DNA from: Bifidobacterium adolescentis ATCC 15703
Lineage (GTDB): Bacteria > Actinomycetota > Actinomycetes > Actinomycetales > Bifidobacteriaceae
DNA: 64,000 bases
Direction of reading: 5' to 3'
Assembly: GCF_000010425.1 (NCBI RefSeq)
Contig: NC_008618.1
Coordinates: forward strand, 861,946-925,945
Under the pieces are notes generated by a model that worked only from the letters and a program-made list of their open reading frames with translations, was not told where the DNA came from and ran no database searches. Positions 25,118 to 32,429 of the stretch are shown piece by piece. The position numbers and the translations under genes are program-made. Numbering within the stretch: position 1 is the stretch's first letter; each line of letters opens with the position of its first letter.

Positions 25118-25152
25118 AGCCGGATGCCTGTCTTTAAGGCATCCGGCTTTTT
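25118..25152 (+). terminator. Rho-independent terminator of the aro operon
   Basis: AGCCGGATGCCT and AGGCATCCGGCT form a perfect 12-bp stem with a seven-base loop, followed by TTTTT, 23 bases after aroQ. Confidence 0.93.
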
Positions 25153-25207
25153 CGTGCCAATGAGGACGACGCATATCCCGGTCTCCCCGGATTGGTATAC
25201 AGTGATA

Positions 25208-25223
25208 TTGCAAACGTATGCAA
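25208..25223. promoter_or_regulatory. LacI-family operator-like palindrome upstream of the amylase pseudogene
   Basis: TTGCAAACGTATGCAA is a near-perfect 16-bp palindrome centred on CG, the form bound by LacI/GalR regulators. It ends 32-38 bases before the candidate start codons of the alpha-amylase, next to AT-rich TATACA/GATATT sequence, so binding would probably block transcription. Confidence 0.6.
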
Positions 25224-25255
25224 ACCGGGAGCATGGCGAAGTGACGAAGAGGTCG

Positions 25256-26760
25256 ATGACTATGGGCGCAATCGCAAGAAGAATCACACGTGTCATTACG
25301 GCGGTCGTATGCGTCGCGGTATCGGTCGGTGTCTCAGTCGCCACGCTTCACGTGCCGACACGTGAAGGCGGCGGGGAACGTTTCAATCCCGCGCGATACC
25401 GCAGCGACGTGATCGTGACCATGTTCCAAGCCAATTGGAAATCCGTCGCCCGCGAATGCGGCGAAGTGTTGGGACCCGAAGGCGTCGGCTACGTACAGGT
25501 CTCGCCGCCGCAGGAAAGCATCCAAGGCGCGCAGTGGTGGACGAGCTATCAGCCGGTAAGCTACAAACTTGACTCCAAAGAAGGCACCGAAGCTGAATTT
25601 AAGAACATGGTCCGGCAATGCAAGGCCGCGGGCGTCGGCGTGATCGCGGATACGGTCATCAACCACACCACCGGCGTCGACAAAACACAAGGGACCGGCA
25701 CCGCCGGAAGCCCCTACGACAATAAAGGCGATTTCCCTGAAGCCGGATACACGCCATCGGACTTCCATGCCCCCTGTTCTATCTGGACGTACCGCGACGC
25801 CGAAAGCGTGTGGAACTGCCAGGTATCGGGTTTGCAGGACCTTGATACATCAAGCCCGCACGTGCGCGACGTGCTGTCTGACTATTTTGTGAAGCTTCTC
25901 GACTACGGCGTCGCCGGATTCCGCGTGGATGCCGTCAAACACATGCCTCCGGAAGACGTACTGGCCATCAAGAAACTCGTTGCGAAGAAATCCGGACGTT
26001 CCATGAACGACATCTGGTGGACGCAGGAAGTGATTGGCGACAATGCGGAAGCCGCCGAAATCCAACCGAGGAACTATCTCAAAACCGGCCAGGTGAACGA
26101 ATTCCAGTACGCATATCGGCTTAAGTCCCTGTTCTCCAACTCGCTGGCAGGCGGAAGCCTGTCGATCAAAGACATTCCGCAGAACATCACCGACAGTGGC
26201 AAGGCCAGCGTATTCGTGACGAATTGGGATACCGAACGCAACAACATGACGCTCACCTACAAGGACGGCGACGCCTACCAGCTAGCGAACGCGTTCATGC
26301 TGGCCTACCCGTATGGCACCCCAACGTGTTCTCCGGATACGAATTCCATGACACCGACTCGGGAGCTCCAGGCGCCACTGCAACCAGCGTGCCCGATATT
26401 GACTGCTCCAAAGACTCCGGCTGAAGCTGCACCGAACGCTGGCCTGACGTGCACGGTATGGTCGGCTGGCATAATGTCGCAGGCGACGCGCCGCTCTCCG
26501 ATTGGCAGGATGACGGCGACAACATGATCGCCTTCGGTCGAGGGGGACGTGCCTTCATCGCCATCAACAATTCCGTGCGCACACGTACTGTGACGTACCA
26601 CACGGCTTTGCCGGCAGGGGAGTATTGCGATGTCTATGCTTCCGCCGACTGTTCCGGCAGCGTGCATGTGCGTTTCGACGGGGATGCCACACTGACGGTT
26701 CCTGCCGGTAGTGCAGTGGCCTTCCATATCGCCGCGACACCGTATACCGTGAGACAATGA
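25256..26760 (+). pseudogene. Secreted alpha-amylase (GH13), disrupted by a frameshift and a stop codon
   Basis: A single-domain secreted alpha-amylase, about 500 residues when reconstructed. A signal peptide (MGAIARRITRVITAVVC and a hydrophobic run) precedes a GH13 barrel with GFRVDAVKH (nucleophile), TQEVIG (acid/base) and FVTNWDTER. The frame breaks at the C-run 26319-26322: ACC CCA ACG continues correctly only if one C is restored, giving YPYGTPNVFSGYEF. In the restored frame a TGA at 26422-26424 interrupts DCSKDSG*SCTERW, where TGG (Trp) is expected. Beyond it the frame stays open to 26760 and matches the apuB amylase domain. A single-base sequencing error could explain the first lesion but not the second. 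The start may be ATG 25262 (GAAGAGG nine bases upstream). Confidence 0.88.
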
Positions 26761-27077
26761 TTGCAATCGTTTGCTGTTTTTGCAGCTATTTCTGAATGTT
26801 TTCTGCTTGACTTGCAGAAAAAAATTTTGCTTGCAGCAACAGGTTGCACTTCGGCATATATGAAGTGCATGTGCAGCAGAGGGTCACGCTGTTTCATTGC
26901 CACGCGCAGCCATTGGCATACAGTTAACTCTGATTCAGAGTGTAAACGTATGCATATTCATCGTCGAGTGGATTCTGAATCATCCGCGTGGATGCGGATG
27001 TCCATGGCGCATACGTTGCCGGTTGCGGAGCCTGCCATGGGCGCTTGAACCGGCCTCACAGATGAGAACGGAGAACA
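26761..27077. other. Gene-free control region upstream of apuB
   Basis: 317 bases without a credible gene, AT-richer than its surroundings. It contains a LacI-type site at its left end, a TTGCT/AGCAA dyad (26827-26839), a perfect seven-plus-seven palindrome ACTCTGA-T-TCAGAGT (26927-26941) that runs into TGTAAACGTATGCA (26941-26954), another CG-centred LacI-like half match, and the apuB ribosome site GGAG (27070-27073). I could not place a confident promoter. Confidence 0.6.
26763..26774. promoter_or_regulatory. LacI-family operator-like palindrome downstream of the pseudogene, upstream of apuB
   Basis: GCAATCGTTTGC is one base from the perfect CG-centred palindrome GCAAACGTTTGC and shares the GCAA..CG..TTGC/ATGC core with the site at 25208-25223. 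It is ~300 bases before the apuB start, so it may be an auxiliary rather than a promoter-blocking site. Confidence 0.45.
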
Positions 27078-30000
27078 ATGGTCGTTCAGACGAACCGGCC
27101 GTTTGGCCGTGTGGTGGCAATAGGAGCCACCGCAGCCATGGCGTGCGCCTCGCTGGTCGCGGCGCCGATTATGGCCCAAGCGCAATCCAACGCGCAGGTC
27201 AGCGCCAAAAAGGATGTGCAGGTCATCGCGTTCCAACAGACATGGAACACGATCGCCAAGGAATGCACCGAAACATATGGTCCCGAAGGCGTGGGCTACG
27301 TCGAAGTATCGCCGCCGCAGGAATCCATCCAAGGCACCCAATGGTGGACGAGCTACCAGCCGGTGAGCTACAAGCTTGACTCCAAACTCGGCGCCGAAGC
27401 GGAATTCGCAAGCATGATCAAGCAGTGCAGCGCCGCCGGCGTTAACGTCATCGCCGATGTGGTTCTGAACCAAACCACCGGATCCGATGTGGCCAAAGGC
27501 GAACAGGCCGGCGTTGCTGGAAGCAAATACAACGGTTCCACCGGCGACTACCCGGGATTCGCCACCAAGCAGTATCCGGACGGCATCACCGCAGCAGACT
27601 TCCACAGCTGCGACAAGAACATCTCCAACTACACCAATCAGCAGGAAGTGCAGGAATGCCGCCTGAGCTCCATGTGGGACTTCAACTCCGAAAACGAGAA
27701 GGTGCAGGACATCCAGTCCGACTATCTCGTCAAGCTGTGGAATCTTGGCGTACGTGGCTTCCGTATGGACGCCGTCAAGCACATCCACACGGACAGCATG
27801 AAGGCCATCAAGGAGAAGTTCGCCAAGAAGATTGGCCAGAACGCCAATGACATCTACTGGATTCAGGAGGTCATCGGCAATTCCTCCGAAGCCGCAGGCA
27901 TCCAGCCGGGCAACTATGTGCAGAACGGCACCGTGACCGAGTTCGGCTTCAAGTCCGAAATGAACCAATACTTCAAGGACAAGGTCGCCAAGCTCAAAGG
28001 ACTGAACGAAAGACTGAGCAAGGATCTGGCCTCCAAGGACGCCAACGTGTTCGTCACCAACTGGGACACCGCCCGCAACCAGGGCGCGCTCACCTACAAG
28101 GACGGTGCGAAATATCAGCTGGCCAACGCGTTTATGCTCGCCTACGATTACGGCACGCCGCGACTGCTCTCCGACTACAAGTGGGATGACGGCCACAATG
28201 ATGACGGTGCGCCTGGCGCCACCGCGGCTTCCGTGCCGGACGTGGATATGAACAAGGAATGCTCCACGAACAACTCCGCATGGAACTGCGAGCAGCGTTG
28301 GACCTCCACCCGCGGCATGATCGCCTTCCATAATTACGTAGGTGACGCCGAAATGACCGATTGGCAGGATGACGGCGGCGACAACATCGCCTTCTCCCGC
28401 GACGACCGTGGTTTCATCGCCATCAACAACGGCAAGAAAGAGAAGGACGTCACCTATACGACGTCCCTCGCCGACGGCGAATACTGCGACGTGTATGCCA
28501 CAATGGACTGCTCCAAGACGGTGACCGTCAAGGGCGGCAAGGTCGAGACGAAGGTTCCGGCACGTTCCGCGATCGCGCTGTATGCAGGTGCCACCAAGGC
28601 CTCGCATCCCGCCGCCTCCACTGCGACCGATCCGTCCGATCCGGACGTAAGCAAAATCGACGACGAGGTGACGGCCACCGACAAGACCATCACCATCTAT
28701 TACAAGCCCGCGGATTCCACATGGAAAACCCCGAAGGTGCACTATGGTCTTGGCGACGACTGGAACCAGCCGGAAGCCGACATGACGCTCGATGAGCAGG
28801 GCTATTACCGTGCCACCATCGATACGAAGGGCAAGAAGATCGACTTCGTGTTCCATGACGCCGACACGGATCAGTGGGAGAACCCGGACGGTGGAGGCAA
28901 CTACCATGCCAACGCCGGTATCATCCAGGTCGGTGTGGCCGGCCAGGAGCTGTCCATCGGCAATCCCGAGTCCGTCGGGCAGAAGACCCGTCTCGTAGTG
29001 CACTACAAGCCCGCAAAGGCTGATGGCCAGCGAGGCGTATACGTGTGGGGCACCTCCACTGACGGAACCGATATCACGGCCACGAACCATCCGTTCACCG
29101 GAACCGATTGCTGGGGCAAGGTGGCGACGCTCGACTTCGATGGCGAATTCACCGATTTCGGCTTCATCATCACCACCGAGGACTGGAACAAGTACGGTGG
29201 TGACCGTAAGGCCACGGTCAATAAGACCGGCACCGCAGAAGTGTGGATCGACGGCACCAAGAACGAGGACAAGGGCGAATCCACCACAGTGGAAACCCTC
29301 GACTCCGCTCCCGCCGACTACAATTGCAAGGCCGATACCGTGAACGTCACCGTGCATTACTACCGCGATGACGGCCTCTACTACAATGCCAAGGACACCA
29401 AGGTGACCGTGCCGCAGTGGGATATCTGGACCTGGTCGAGCAATTGGAACGGCGGCAACGCCACCTTCGATTCCCATGACGATTGGGGCGAGGTCGCGAA
29501 GTATTCCGTGCCGAATTACACCTATAGCAACGCGGATGGCAATTCCGACATCGGCATGCTGCGCAGGTATGGTTCTGACGCATGGGCTTCCAAAGACCCG
29601 GATGACGCCAACCATATGATCCCGTCCGACGCGCTCGTATTCGACGCAGACGGCAACGCTTCCGCCGAAGTGTGGCTGGTCGGCGGCGATCCCACGGTGT
29701 ATTCCTCCCGTCCGTCTCTGAAGATCGCACTTAAGTCCGCTGAGATCTCCGATTTCAAGGAACTGACCGCGCGTCTGTCGAAGAAGCCGGCCGATGGCGC
29801 CATCACGAAGGCCATGGTGGCCGTCAAGGACGCCGATGGCAACAAGGTCGATGTTGAGGACGTCACCGTCAATAAGAGCACGGTGAAGATCAAGACCGCC
29901 AAGAAGCTCGCCGTCACCGGCAAGTACACCATTGAGATCGAGGGCATGGGCTCTCAGACGGCCATCGCCGGCGCTCTGGTGCGTACCGACGCCTTCGACA

Positions 30001-32357
30001 AGGCATACGCCTATGATGGCGACGATTTGGGCGCTACCTTCAAGGAGGCTCGGACCGGTTTCAAGGTGTGGGCTCCGACCGCCACCAAGGTAGAGCTCGT
30101 CATCTACAAGTCCACCGATCCGAACGCCGAAGTCGACAAGACCATCGATATGACCGGCGAAGACAAGGGCGTGTGGAGCGCCACGGTGAAGAAGCTCGCT
30201 TCCGGCACCGCATACTCCTACAAGCTCACTTTCGCCGATGGCACGGTCAACACCTCCTCCGATCCGTACGCCACCGCCGCGGTCGCCAATGGCGAGCGTT
30301 CCGTGGTGCTGTCCAAGGAGGATATGGGATCCGCCGGCAAGCGCATGCCGGCCTTCGGCAAGACCACTGACGCCACCATCGCGGAAATGAACATTCGCGA
30401 CTTCTCCATCAACCCGAATTCCGGCATTTCCGCAGACAAGCAGGGCAAGTACCTGGGTGTCGTGGAATCCGGCACGAAGACGAAGGAAGGCGCCACCTCC
30501 GGCCTTGACTACCTGAAGCAGCTGGGCATCAGCCATGTGCAGATCATGCCGATGTACGATTATGGTTCCGTCGATGAGACCGGCGACCTGAGCTACAACG
30601 CGAATGGCGCGCAGAACTGGGGCTACGATCCGGAGAACTACAACGTGCCGGAAGGCTCGTATTCCTCCAATCCGTCCAACCCGAGCTCCCGTGTCGCCGA
30701 AATGAAGCAGATGGTCAAGGAACTGCATAAGAACGACATCCGCGTCATCATGGATGTGGTGTACAACCACGTCTACAATGCGGCGAACCACTCGTTCAAC
30801 AAGACGGTTCCGGGCTACTATTTCCGCTATGACGCCAACGGTTCGCTGGTCAACAACTCCGGCTGCGGCAACGATACGGCCTCCGAACGCAAGATGATGC
30901 GCAAATATATCGTCGATTCGGTGACCTATTGGGCGAAGAACTACAACGTGGATGGCTTCCGATTCGACCTTATGGGCCTGATCGACACCGAAACCATGAA
31001 GGAAGTCCGCGCCGCGCTCGACAAGATCGATCCGTCCATCATCATCCTCGGCGAAGGCTGGGATATGAACACCACGATGGACAAGAGCAAGATGACCATC
31101 CAGCCGAACGCCTACCAGGTCGCATCGGACGGCAAGAACAACGGCATTGCCTTCTTCAACGATTCCATCCGTGATGGTCTGAAGGGCTCCGTGTTCGACA
31201 GCGCCGACACTGGCTTCGTGTCCGGCAAGGCCGGTCAGGAGAAGCTCATCGCGCACAATGCGTTGGGCTGCCAGTATGACGCCGAAGCGGAAACGACCTG
31301 CTGGAACGGCAATGCGCAGGATCATTACGCGGATGCCGGCCAGGTGGTCAACTACGCCGAAATCCACGACAACCTGACCCTGTACGACAAGCTCAAGGCA
31401 TCCGTTCCGACGGATGACGAGGCCACCACCGTGGCCCGCGCCAAGCTCGCCGATTCCGTGGTCTACCTGTCCGAAGGCATTCCGGCCATCCAGCTCGGCC
31501 AGGAGTTCCTGCGCACCAAGGGCGGCAACGGCAACAGCTACAACGCAGGTGACGCGGCGAACGCCATCGACTGGAACCGCGCCGCGCAATACGCCGATTC
31601 CGTCGACTACGTCAAGGGTCTGATCAAGCTGCGTAAGCAGATCAAGGCGCTGCGCCTGACCAACTACGACGACATCAACGACAGTGTGACGATGCTCAAG
31701 TCCGATGAAGGCGTCGTAGCCTATCAGGCAAAGGATTCCAGCGGCACCTACATGGTGATCTTCAACGCCAACAACGAGCCCGCCGCCGTTGAAGGCATAG
31801 GCGCCGGCAAGTACAACGTGCTCGCCGGCGACGGCACCGTGTACGACGAGAACGCCAAGGATGCCTTCGTCCGCAAGGGCTCCACGTACACTGCAGGCGC
31901 GCTGTCCGCCACCGTGCTCAAGGTCGCCTCTGCCGACGATGTCGTTCCCGTTATCAGCGGAATGACCGAATCGACGACCATCACCGTGGGATCCAAGTTC
32001 GATTCGATGGCCGGCGTCACTGCCGATGACTCCATTGATGGTGATCTGACCGACGGCATCAAGGTCGAAGGCACTGTGGACGCCGGCAAGGTGGGCGACT
32101 ACAAGCTGGTCTATTCCGTGAGCAATTCCCGCGGCAAGACCACAACGTTTACCCGAACGGTCCATGTCCAGAAGAAGGTTGTCGTCCCTACGGCCGAGGC
32201 GAATGCAGCCAGCGGTAAAAAGAACGAGAACGCATCACGGGCGCAGAGTCCGGCAACCGGCTCCAACGTCATGGGCCTCGCCCTGGCGATCGCGGCGCTC
32301 GTCATCGCAGCGGGCGCGCTGATCGTCTCCCACAGGAAGGAGGTCAGCAACCGATAA
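27078..32357 (+). CDS. apuB: Bifunctional amylopullulanase (alpha-amylase plus type I pullulanase), surface-anchored
   Basis: 1759-residue extracellular enzyme for starch, glycogen and pullulan. In order: signal peptide (to about residue 36, AQAQS); GH13 alpha-amylase (~45-525) with nucleophile D231 (GFRMDAVKH), acid/base E264 (IQEVIG) and D330 (FVTNWDT); three starch-binding modules of CBM25/CBM41 character (~560-900; HYKPAKADGQRGVYVWG, HYYRDDGLYYN); a CBM48-type module (~1000-1090; FKVWAPTATKVEL); pullulanase core with NWGYDPENYNVPEGSY, DVVYNHVY, D1297 (FRFDLM), E1326 (GEGWD) and D1431 (EIHDN); an Ig-like DUF5011 module; then SPATG, a hydrophobic helix and HRKEVSNR. ApuB of Bifidobacterium breve has this two-enzyme plan. 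The ATG at 27078 has GGAG upstream. The amylase half is paralogous to the adjacent pseudogene. Confidence 0.95.
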   Translation: MVVQTNRPFGRVVAIGATAAMACASLVAAPIMAQAQSNAQVSAKKDVQVIAFQQTWNTIAKECTETYGPEGVGYVEVSPPQESIQGTQWWTSYQPVSYKLDSKLGAEAEFASMIKQCSAAGVNVIADVVLNQTTGSDVAKGEQAGVAGSKYNGSTGDYPGFATKQYPDGITAADFHSCDKNISNYTNQQEVQECRLSSMWDFNSENEKVQDIQSDYLVKLWNLGVRGFRMDAVKHIHTDSMKAIKEKFAKKIGQNANDIYWIQEVIGNSSEAAGIQPGNYVQNGTVTEFGFKSEMNQYFKDKVAKLKGLNERLSKDLASKDANVFVTNWDTARNQGALTYKDGAKYQLANAFMLAYDYGTPRLLSDYKWDDGHNDDGAPGATAASVPDVDMNKECSTNNSAWNCEQRWTSTRGMIAFHNYVGDAEMTDWQDDGGDNIAFSRDDRGFIAINNGKKEKDVTYTTSLADGEYCDVYATMDCSKTVTVKGGKVETKVPARSAIALYAGATKASHPAASTATDPSDPDVSKIDDEVTATDKTITIYYKPADSTWKTPKVHYGLGDDWNQPEADMTLDEQGYYRATIDTKGKKIDFVFHDADTDQWENPDGGGNYHANAGIIQVGVAGQELSIGNPESVGQKTRLVVHYKPAKADGQRGVYVWGTSTDGTDITATNHPFTGTDCWGKVATLDFDGEFTDFGFIITTEDWNKYGGDRKATVNKTGTAEVWIDGTKNEDKGESTTVETLDSAPADYNCKADTVNVTVHYYRDDGLYYNAKDTKVTVPQWDIWTWSSNWNGGNATFDSHDDWGEVAKYSVPNYTYSNADGNSDIGMLRRYGSDAWASKDPDDANHMIPSDALVFDADGNASAEVWLVGGDPTVYSSRPSLKIALKSAEISDFKELTARLSKKPADGAITKAMVAVKDADGNKVDVEDVTVNKSTVKIKTAKKLAVTGKYTIEIEGMGSQTAIAGALVRTDAFDKAYAYDGDDLGATFKEARTGFKVWAPTATKVELVIYKSTDPNAEVDKTIDMTGEDKGVWSATVKKLASGTAYSYKLTFADGTVNTSSDPYATAAVANGERSVVLSKEDMGSAGKRMPAFGKTTDATIAEMNIRDFSINPNSGISADKQGKYLGVVESGTKTKEGATSGLDYLKQLGISHVQIMPMYDYGSVDETGDLSYNANGAQNWGYDPENYNVPEGSYSSNPSNPSSRVAEMKQMVKELHKNDIRVIMDVVYNHVYNAANHSFNKTVPGYYFRYDANGSLVNNSGCGNDTASERKMMRKYIVDSVTYWAKNYNVDGFRFDLMGLIDTETMKEVRAALDKIDPSIIILGEGWDMNTTMDKSKMTIQPNAYQVASDGKNNGIAFFNDSIRDGLKGSVFDSADTGFVSGKAGQEKLIAHNALGCQYDAEAETTCWNGNAQDHYADAGQVVNYAEIHDNLTLYDKLKASVPTDDEATTVARAKLADSVVYLSEGIPAIQLGQEFLRTKGGNGNSYNAGDAANAIDWNRAAQYADSVDYVKGLIKLRKQIKALRLTNYDDINDSVTMLKSDEGVVAYQAKDSSGTYMVIFNANNEPAAVEGIGAGKYNVLAGDGTVYDENAKDAFVRKGSTYTAGALSATVLKVASADDVVPVISGMTESTTITVGSKFDSMAGVTADDSIDGDLTDGIKVEGTVDAGKVGDYKLVYSVSNSRGKTTTFTRTVHVQKKVVVPTAEANAASGKKNENASRAQSPATGSNVMGLALAIAALVIAAGALIVSHRKEVSNR

Positions 32358-32392
32358 GACCATAATCGTCTGACTGCATCTCCTATTCCTGG

Positions 32393-32429
32393 AAGATGGG
32401 GCCGCGCATGAAGCGCGGCCCCATCTTTT
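32393..32429 (+). terminator. Rho-independent terminator of apuB
   Basis: GATGGGGCCGCGC and GCGCGGCCCCATC form a perfect 13-bp stem with loop ATGAA, then TTTTC. Confidence 0.92.

Follow-up and report, generated by a model that had tools for sequence, protein, structure and literature searches.

A Predicted Class E-Type Sorting Signal with Serine at Position P4 in the Amylopullulanase of Bifidobacterium adolescentis

Results

Domain Structure and C-Terminus of ApuB

The apuB gene of Bifidobacterium adolescentis ATCC 15703 is located at positions 27078..32357 of the analyzed window, a stretch of 64,000 nucleotides of contig NC_008618.1 (positions 861,946 to 925,945); the gene and all its features described in this section are on the forward strand. 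By translation and by Pfam and NCBIfam matches, apuB encodes a bifunctional amylopullulanase of 1759 amino acids (aa), in which the N-terminal alpha-amylase with its C-terminal beta domain is followed by PUD domains, CBM48 and the type I pullulanase, an Ig-like domain, and, at the very C-terminus, the candidate sortase substrate that is the subject of this study. A putative Sec-type signal peptide, judged by eye, covers approximately residues 1–35 (27078..27182), with the predicted cleavage site at ...MAQA/QS. The Bact_surface_Ig-like domain (PF16403, residues 1631–1697, 31968..32168; Pfam E-value 7.6e-17 with the whole protein) is a likely stalk; the linker after it (32169..32246) is poorly conserved in the pairwise alignment with the relative from B. 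ruminantium.

The complete C-terminal sequence is RAQSPATGSNVMGLALAIAALVIAAGALIVSHRKEVSNR. It proceeds from ...RAQ to the sorting pentapeptide SPATG (residues 1724–1728, 32247..32261), the dipeptide SN, the hydrophobic stretch VMGLALAIAALVIAAGALIV (32268..32327, mean Kyte–Doolittle hydropathy 2.75 over 20 residues), and the basic tail SHRKEVSNR (32328..32354), whose nine residues include H, R, K, and R, plus a single E. The first-pass annotation of this DNA, made from the letters alone, had noticed SPATG, a helix of about 20 hydrophobic residues, and a basic tail, with Ser replacing the usual Leu at position P4, the first of the pentapeptide; the translation bears out the three-part layout, with correct coordinates, and the sequence bears out the replacement. 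The layout as such is ordinary, and the novelty is limited to Ser at P4.

Sorting signals of the xxxTG type are expected approximately 30–45 residues from the protein end and contain a hydrophobic stretch followed by a positive tail. In ApuB, the distance from the start of SPATG to the protein end is 36 residues, and the hydrophobic stretch and the positive tail follow in this order. We tested for [x][P/A/S]xTG, a hydrophobic stretch, and at least two K/R within the last 12 residues: among the 670 stop-to-stop open reading frames (ORFs) of at least 50 aa in the window, this layout is unique to ApuB, while among shuffled tails it occurs in 6 of 134,000.

ApuB stays below the cut-offs of the general anchor models (Pfam Gram_pos_anchor PF00746, 15.9 vs. 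20 bits; NCBIfam NF033846, 16.3 vs. 23.5 bits), and TIGR01167 has no listed match in ApuB at E-values up to 1. As the scores are sub-threshold, these models alone miss the signal; therefore, descent from related signals was used as the test. The leave-out profile, constructed from the tails of 33 other relatives, none of them with Ser or Thr at P4, recovers ApuB in the genome-wide search with an E-value of 3.7e-6; within the window, ApuB is its sole significant match (6e-6, the next being 2.2).

Descent and Conservation of the Signal

We compared 45 C-termini, taking the best ApuB relative from each of 45 Bifidobacterium genomes, B. adolescentis included; these relatives are best matches, a few of which, besides the one from genome G051, are partial or split. 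In 40 of the 45 C-termini, a pentapeptide with TG as its last two residues precedes a hydrophobic stretch and a tail that is mostly basic. The remaining five comprise four proteins that end in another (repeat) domain and one masked record (L060), which was excluded from the 40 signals and shows LSATG in another frame. The T and G of the pentapeptide are the sole invariant columns of the 40-row alignment. Position P4 is occupied by Leu, Ile, Val, or Met in 32 signals, Thr in four, Ser in three, and His in one; position P3 is Ala or Ser in 31 signals, and Pro or Ala in all seven relatives with Ser or Thr at P4. ApuB of B. breve UCC2003 is reportedly an extracellular type II amylopullulanase; the relative from genome G014, possibly B. 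breve, has the same signal layout as B. adolescentis ApuB, but ends in LPNTG rather than SPATG.

B. adolescentis and B. ruminantium (G069) share the heptapeptide SPATGSN, whereas the linker immediately N-terminal of it differs between them by numerous substitutions and a gap of seven residues. In the profile searches, the score of the B. adolescentis signal is comparable to those of its peers. Because SPATGSN is identical across the diverged linker and TG is invariant in the relatives, the C-terminus of ApuB is, as judged from these alignments, a sorting signal by descent that has been kept instead of decayed; the word "degenerate," initially applied to it, fits a motif conserved in this way poorly.

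The main rival explanation is a plain membrane anchor, with the class E sortase rejecting Ser at P4 (combined with Pro at P3) and ApuB remaining uncleaved and projecting through the wall. The helix and the basic tail alone would suffice for C-terminal anchoring. In that case, the pentapeptide could drift freely, yet all 40 related signals have TG, SPATG is common to B. adolescentis and B. ruminantium, and no residue other than Pro or Ala is found at P3 of the seven relatives with Ser or Thr; we consider a plain anchor unlikely.

Four relatives (G034, G004, G046, and G009; loci L025, L026, L028, and L030) have no sorting signal and carry similar C-terminal repeats; surface retention by another route may operate in these proteins. 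Their existence would be consistent with a decaying signal in B. adolescentis, cleavage being slow or lost and much of ApuB being shed like a secreted amylase. The alpha-amylase-like ORFs upstream of apuB in the window also end without a sorting signal, making free secretion of a related amylase plausible. However, the four relatives end in a repeat domain instead (matching DUF5648, PF18885, in the one tested), and the B. adolescentis signal, as noted above, scores like those of its peers and is conserved in B. ruminantium; decay seems to us very improbable.

In a tree of 30 ApuB rows, a polar residue at P4 needs three changes, of which two are forced by well-supported branches. A single, never-reversed origin of polar P4 was considered and rejected, as species with Val, Ile, and Leu intervene and at least two changes are forced.

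Sortases and Other Signals of B. adolescentis

Four sortases (PF04203) are encoded in the genome, one of class E and three of class C by the best NCBIfam class; none of the four matches is of class B. There is no PF04203 match inside the window and no sortase gene beside apuB. The class E sortase (C1:45551-46192) scores 251.6 bits with NF033747, the cut-off being 160, and class E is above this cut-off in 111 of 112 Bifidobacterium genomes, the exception, G079, being an assembly of 91% completeness. The presence and class of the sortases are results of the present analysis, as are the layout of the ApuB signal and its descent from related signals. A special sortase for SPATG in B. adolescentis was considered and rejected, since only the one class E and three class C enzymes were found in the genome, and the class E catalytic domain has no private residue among the 43 sequences compared.

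Each class C sortase has an anchor-like ORF in the surrounding stretch (LPTTG, LPLTG, and QPHTG). Pilin-type signals of B. adolescentis have Pro at P3, as does SPATG, and through this Pro, ApuB might be handled by a class C (pilus) sortase. None of the four sortase places, though, is in the window, the downstream neighbor of apuB resembles CTP synthase by eye, and Ala or Ser prevails at P3 of the ApuB relatives; processing by a class C sortase is, in our estimate, highly improbable. Nor does ApuB resemble a sortase-polymerised pilin, which would have pilin domains and a neighboring class C sortase: it gives no Pfam match to Cna_B/SpaA at E-values up to 1.

The LPTTG anchor adjoining a class C sortase is in an open frame of 70 aa (G000:C1, L047 6006-6215, forward strand), which may reflect a frameshift in this pilin gene; in B. 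breve, pilus genes switched by slippage have been described (PMC9187656).

Among the other class E-type clients found in B. adolescentis, the strongest is a GH26/CBM11 protein with LSRTG (G000:C1:1281085-1281189, L050). A 740-aa ORF (G000:C1, L049 3073-5292, reverse strand) ends in LGKTG, a hydrophobic stretch, and a basic tail, and is listed by neither profile search; the survey of signals is, for this reason, incomplete.

Ser and Thr at P4 across the Genus

Position P4 was surveyed in all listed leave-out-profile matches with E-values up to 0.01; these comprised 53 rows from 11 adolescentis-group genomes and 126 rows from 14 other genomes. Rows without a TG pentapeptide and a hydrophobic stretch near the end were dropped (5 of 53 and 2 of 126; one of the latter two, from G071, has LANSG), and the ApuB rows themselves (7 in the group, 11 outside) were left out of the counts. 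The counts include several members per family, a redundancy that, like shared descent, the Fisher values calculated from them do not take into account, and the leave-out profile misses some signals. Pilin-type signals were kept except SAKTG/FAKTG; because SAKTG proteins look pilin-like, counts are given with and without this family.

Ser or Thr at P4 is seen in 11 of 41 signals in the adolescentis group and 5 of 113 outside it. The excess is confined to a sister lineage of four genomes, those of B. merycicum (G045), B. erythrocebi (G029), B. pongonis (G059), and G005, which we take to be probably B. angulatum. Here, Ser or Thr occurs in 9 of 14 signals or, without the pilin-like SAKTG family, in 5 of 10; by eye, these ten form four families (TANTG, TAQTG, LASTG, LSKTG), two of them with Thr. 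Elsewhere than in the sister lineage, the fraction is 7 of 138 (SAKTG family left out), and the outside Thr cases come from G043 (TANTG, TANTG, and TAPTG; 3 of 18) and G017 (TAHTG and TAATG; 2 of 8). Some near-identical tails differ at P4: SAKTG/FAKTG, SPRTG/LPRTG, and TANTG/VANTG, the last pair also having an insertion of three residues; SPRTG (E-value 0.039) is outside the P4 counts. A spread of Ser and Thr over the whole adolescentis group was suggested by the profile that included the group rows, and was rejected on the basis of the leave-out profile and of a larger sample from outside the group. No report of Ser or Thr at P4 in Bifidobacterium was found in a limited literature search on sortase motifs, mostly at the level of listings.

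The SAKTG proteins were also considered as class E clients and rejected as such: the one scanned has a Cna_B domain, and at three of the four loci (those with enough flank), the SAKTG gene sits between an ORF with a sortase signature and an LPSTG ORF. Near-identical pilin-like FAKTG tails that match the sister lineage's SAKTG family are present in two different genomes (G048, L250; G098, L267). This suggests that a pilus locus was transferred recently or that an assembly contains stray contigs, one of the tails being on a contig of 4748 bases.

Class E Sortase of the Sister Lineage

ApuB ends in TAATG in all four genomes of the sister lineage. Their class E sortases share T169S, L185S, T187K, and H222S, seen in none of the 39 others (alignment of 43 sequences, 151 catalytic-domain positions; numbering by the B. 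adolescentis open frame, with Met as residue 3). In SrtE1 of Streptomyces coelicolor, the P4 side chain was modelled against T291, P293, S294, N295, V296, V298, L299, T318, and I331 (PMC5148588). These S4-pocket residues were mapped by sequence pattern and alignment with 5go5. In this mapping, P293 corresponds to P186 of B. adolescentis class E (by pattern), T187 is the listed pocket position S294, L185 adjoins a pocket position, and H222 is before the catalytic Arg and three residues before the equivalent of I331. Hence, one of the four private residues is strictly among the listed positions, and two more are beside them.

The private residues and the Thr-rich signals suggest a connection between enzyme and clients, in the form of a correlation within one clade. 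It is conceivable, although we hold it to be doubtful, that co-evolution of class E sortase and clients in the sister lineage has led to [T/S]AxTG as a new signal, SPATG/SPNTG of B. adolescentis, B. ruminantium, and G060 representing an early tolerant stage. A sortase of unusual specificity, one of the proposals of the first-pass annotation, is less likely for B. adolescentis, where no special sortase was found, and stays a live idea for the sister lineage. The check proposed along with it, on co-occurrence of xPxTG variants with a particular sortase, was run as far as feasible and gave a similarly divided answer: no extra sortase accompanies SPATG in B. adolescentis, and the sister lineage is a candidate for changed class E specificity.

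Neighborhood of apuB

Immediately upstream of apuB, the window contains an alpha-amylase-like paralogue of the ApuB N-terminus (25124-26760, forward strand), split over two ORFs in different frames. The ORF at 25124-26527 matches ApuB residues 12–366 at 48%, and the ORF at 26449-26760, which ends without a sorting signal, matches residues 412–507 at 53%; judging by these matches, the gene appears to carry a frameshift. Under most of apuB, on the reverse strand, runs an antisense 1735-aa ORF (26958-32165) that is most likely a codon-bias artefact and not a gene. On the 3' side of apuB, a 17-bp hairpin (32391..32429, forward strand) with a folding energy of -34.4 kcal/mol (z -7.88) and ATCTTTT at the end of its 3' arm precedes the ORF that by eye is CTP synthase-like. 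The hairpin was not detected by a consensus terminator scan; it is likely a terminator.

Discussion

We consider it probable that the C-terminus of ApuB is a functional Bifidobacterium sorting signal of the class E type, a variant with Ser at P4 that would serve ordinary wall anchoring. ApuB would leave the cell via its putative signal peptide, and the helix and the basic tail would retain it in the membrane; the class E sortase, the single housekeeping enzyme, would cut SPATG between Thr and Gly and join ApuB to a peptidoglycan precursor; and the amylase, pullulanase, and carbohydrate-binding parts would be displayed at the wall on the Ig-like stalk. Class E action on ApuB, acceptance of Ser, and the wall-bound state are what we infer here from sequence comparison. 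Display at the wall is likely, and retention at the surface, which the first-pass annotation had expected by either of its routes, may be upheld as the likely outcome.

The housekeeping sortase of B. bifidum is the class E enzyme. Its mutants accumulate aberrant proteins in the membrane fraction, and the three identified are enzymes with [L/I]SxTG; 26 proteins with [L/I/V][S/A]xTG, mostly glycoside hydrolases, were listed, and the motif [L/I/V][S/A/P]xTG was proposed (PMC8603203). This BF1_0427 system and ApuB have in common the genus, the sortase class, and the signal layout, and the B. bifidum clients are mostly large extracellular glycosidases. However, the published P4 residues are Leu, Ile, or Val only, in a survey that searched for those letters, vs. 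Ser in ApuB, and no amylopullulanase is present in the table of 26 proteins (PMC8603203). Among the features of class E clients, B. adolescentis has the sortase and, at P3 of ApuB, one of the allowed residues (Ser, Ala, or Pro), namely Pro; Ser instead of an aliphatic residue at P4 is the sole departure from [L/I/V][S/A/P]xTG, and would be a tolerated variant of the usual Leu, Ile, Val, or Met.

Both LPETG and LAETG are cleaved by S. coelicolor SrtE1, which prefers Ala twofold (PMC5148588), hence Pro at P3 is no obstacle. The system of SrtE1/SrtE2 and the LAxTG chaplins resembles that considered here in being of class E, with SrtE1 taking Ala or Pro at P3 and cutting between Thr and Gly, and differs in having Leu at P4, vs. 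Ser in ApuB (PMC5148588). Ser at P4 is, in turn, no bar to sortases as such, because C. difficile SrtB cleaves SPKTG; Ser-Pro-x-Thr-Gly, the motif of ApuB, is a true sorting motif there, as part of (S/P)PxTG (PMC4155245, PMC4371152). SrtB, however, is a class B enzyme, while the B. adolescentis PF04203 matches are all of class E or C. In addition, a gut IgA metallopeptidase was described with an SPXTG motif, a potential sortase site and likely anchor (PMC12402451).

Several points weigh against class E processing of ApuB. Leu and Ser at P4 can exclude each other in one enzyme, since SrtB cleaves SPxTG and not LPETG (PMC4155245, PMC4371152). The S4 pocket of SrtE1 was modelled as non-polar and holding Leu (PMC5148588), and the lack of private residues in B. 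adolescentis class E leaves nothing there that would explain Ser; both observations would also suit a plain membrane anchor. In the adolescentis group other than the sister lineage, B. adolescentis included, Ser or Thr at P4 is seen in 2 of 27 signals, no more than outside the group. The sole other candidate with Ser or Thr at P4 seen in B. adolescentis is a 181-aa protein with TASTG, which is weak (E-value 0.005 with the group rows in the profile, 0.016 without them) and has no matches in a Pfam scan. The sub-threshold scores of PF00746 and NF033846 belong here as well. Finally, no biochemical or localization data on B. adolescentis ApuB were found in the literature searched. Sortase anchoring of ApuB is likewise not mentioned in the passages searched on bifidobacterial starch use, vaginal amylases, and alpha-glucan enzymes, nor in those on B. 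adolescentis comparative genomics, B. dentium, and B. pseudocatenulatum.

Surveys for LPxTG or [L/I/V][S/A]xTG would miss ApuB in B. adolescentis and six relatives, and also about half of the other profile-found signals in the sister lineage. Class E specificity has been little studied, and sister species whose clients closely resemble each other, while P4 and the S4-loop residues differ, form a natural set for testing it. For the organism itself, surface display of a starch enzyme, if ApuB is indeed anchored as predicted, would bear on how starch-degrading gut Bifidobacterium keeps the products to itself.

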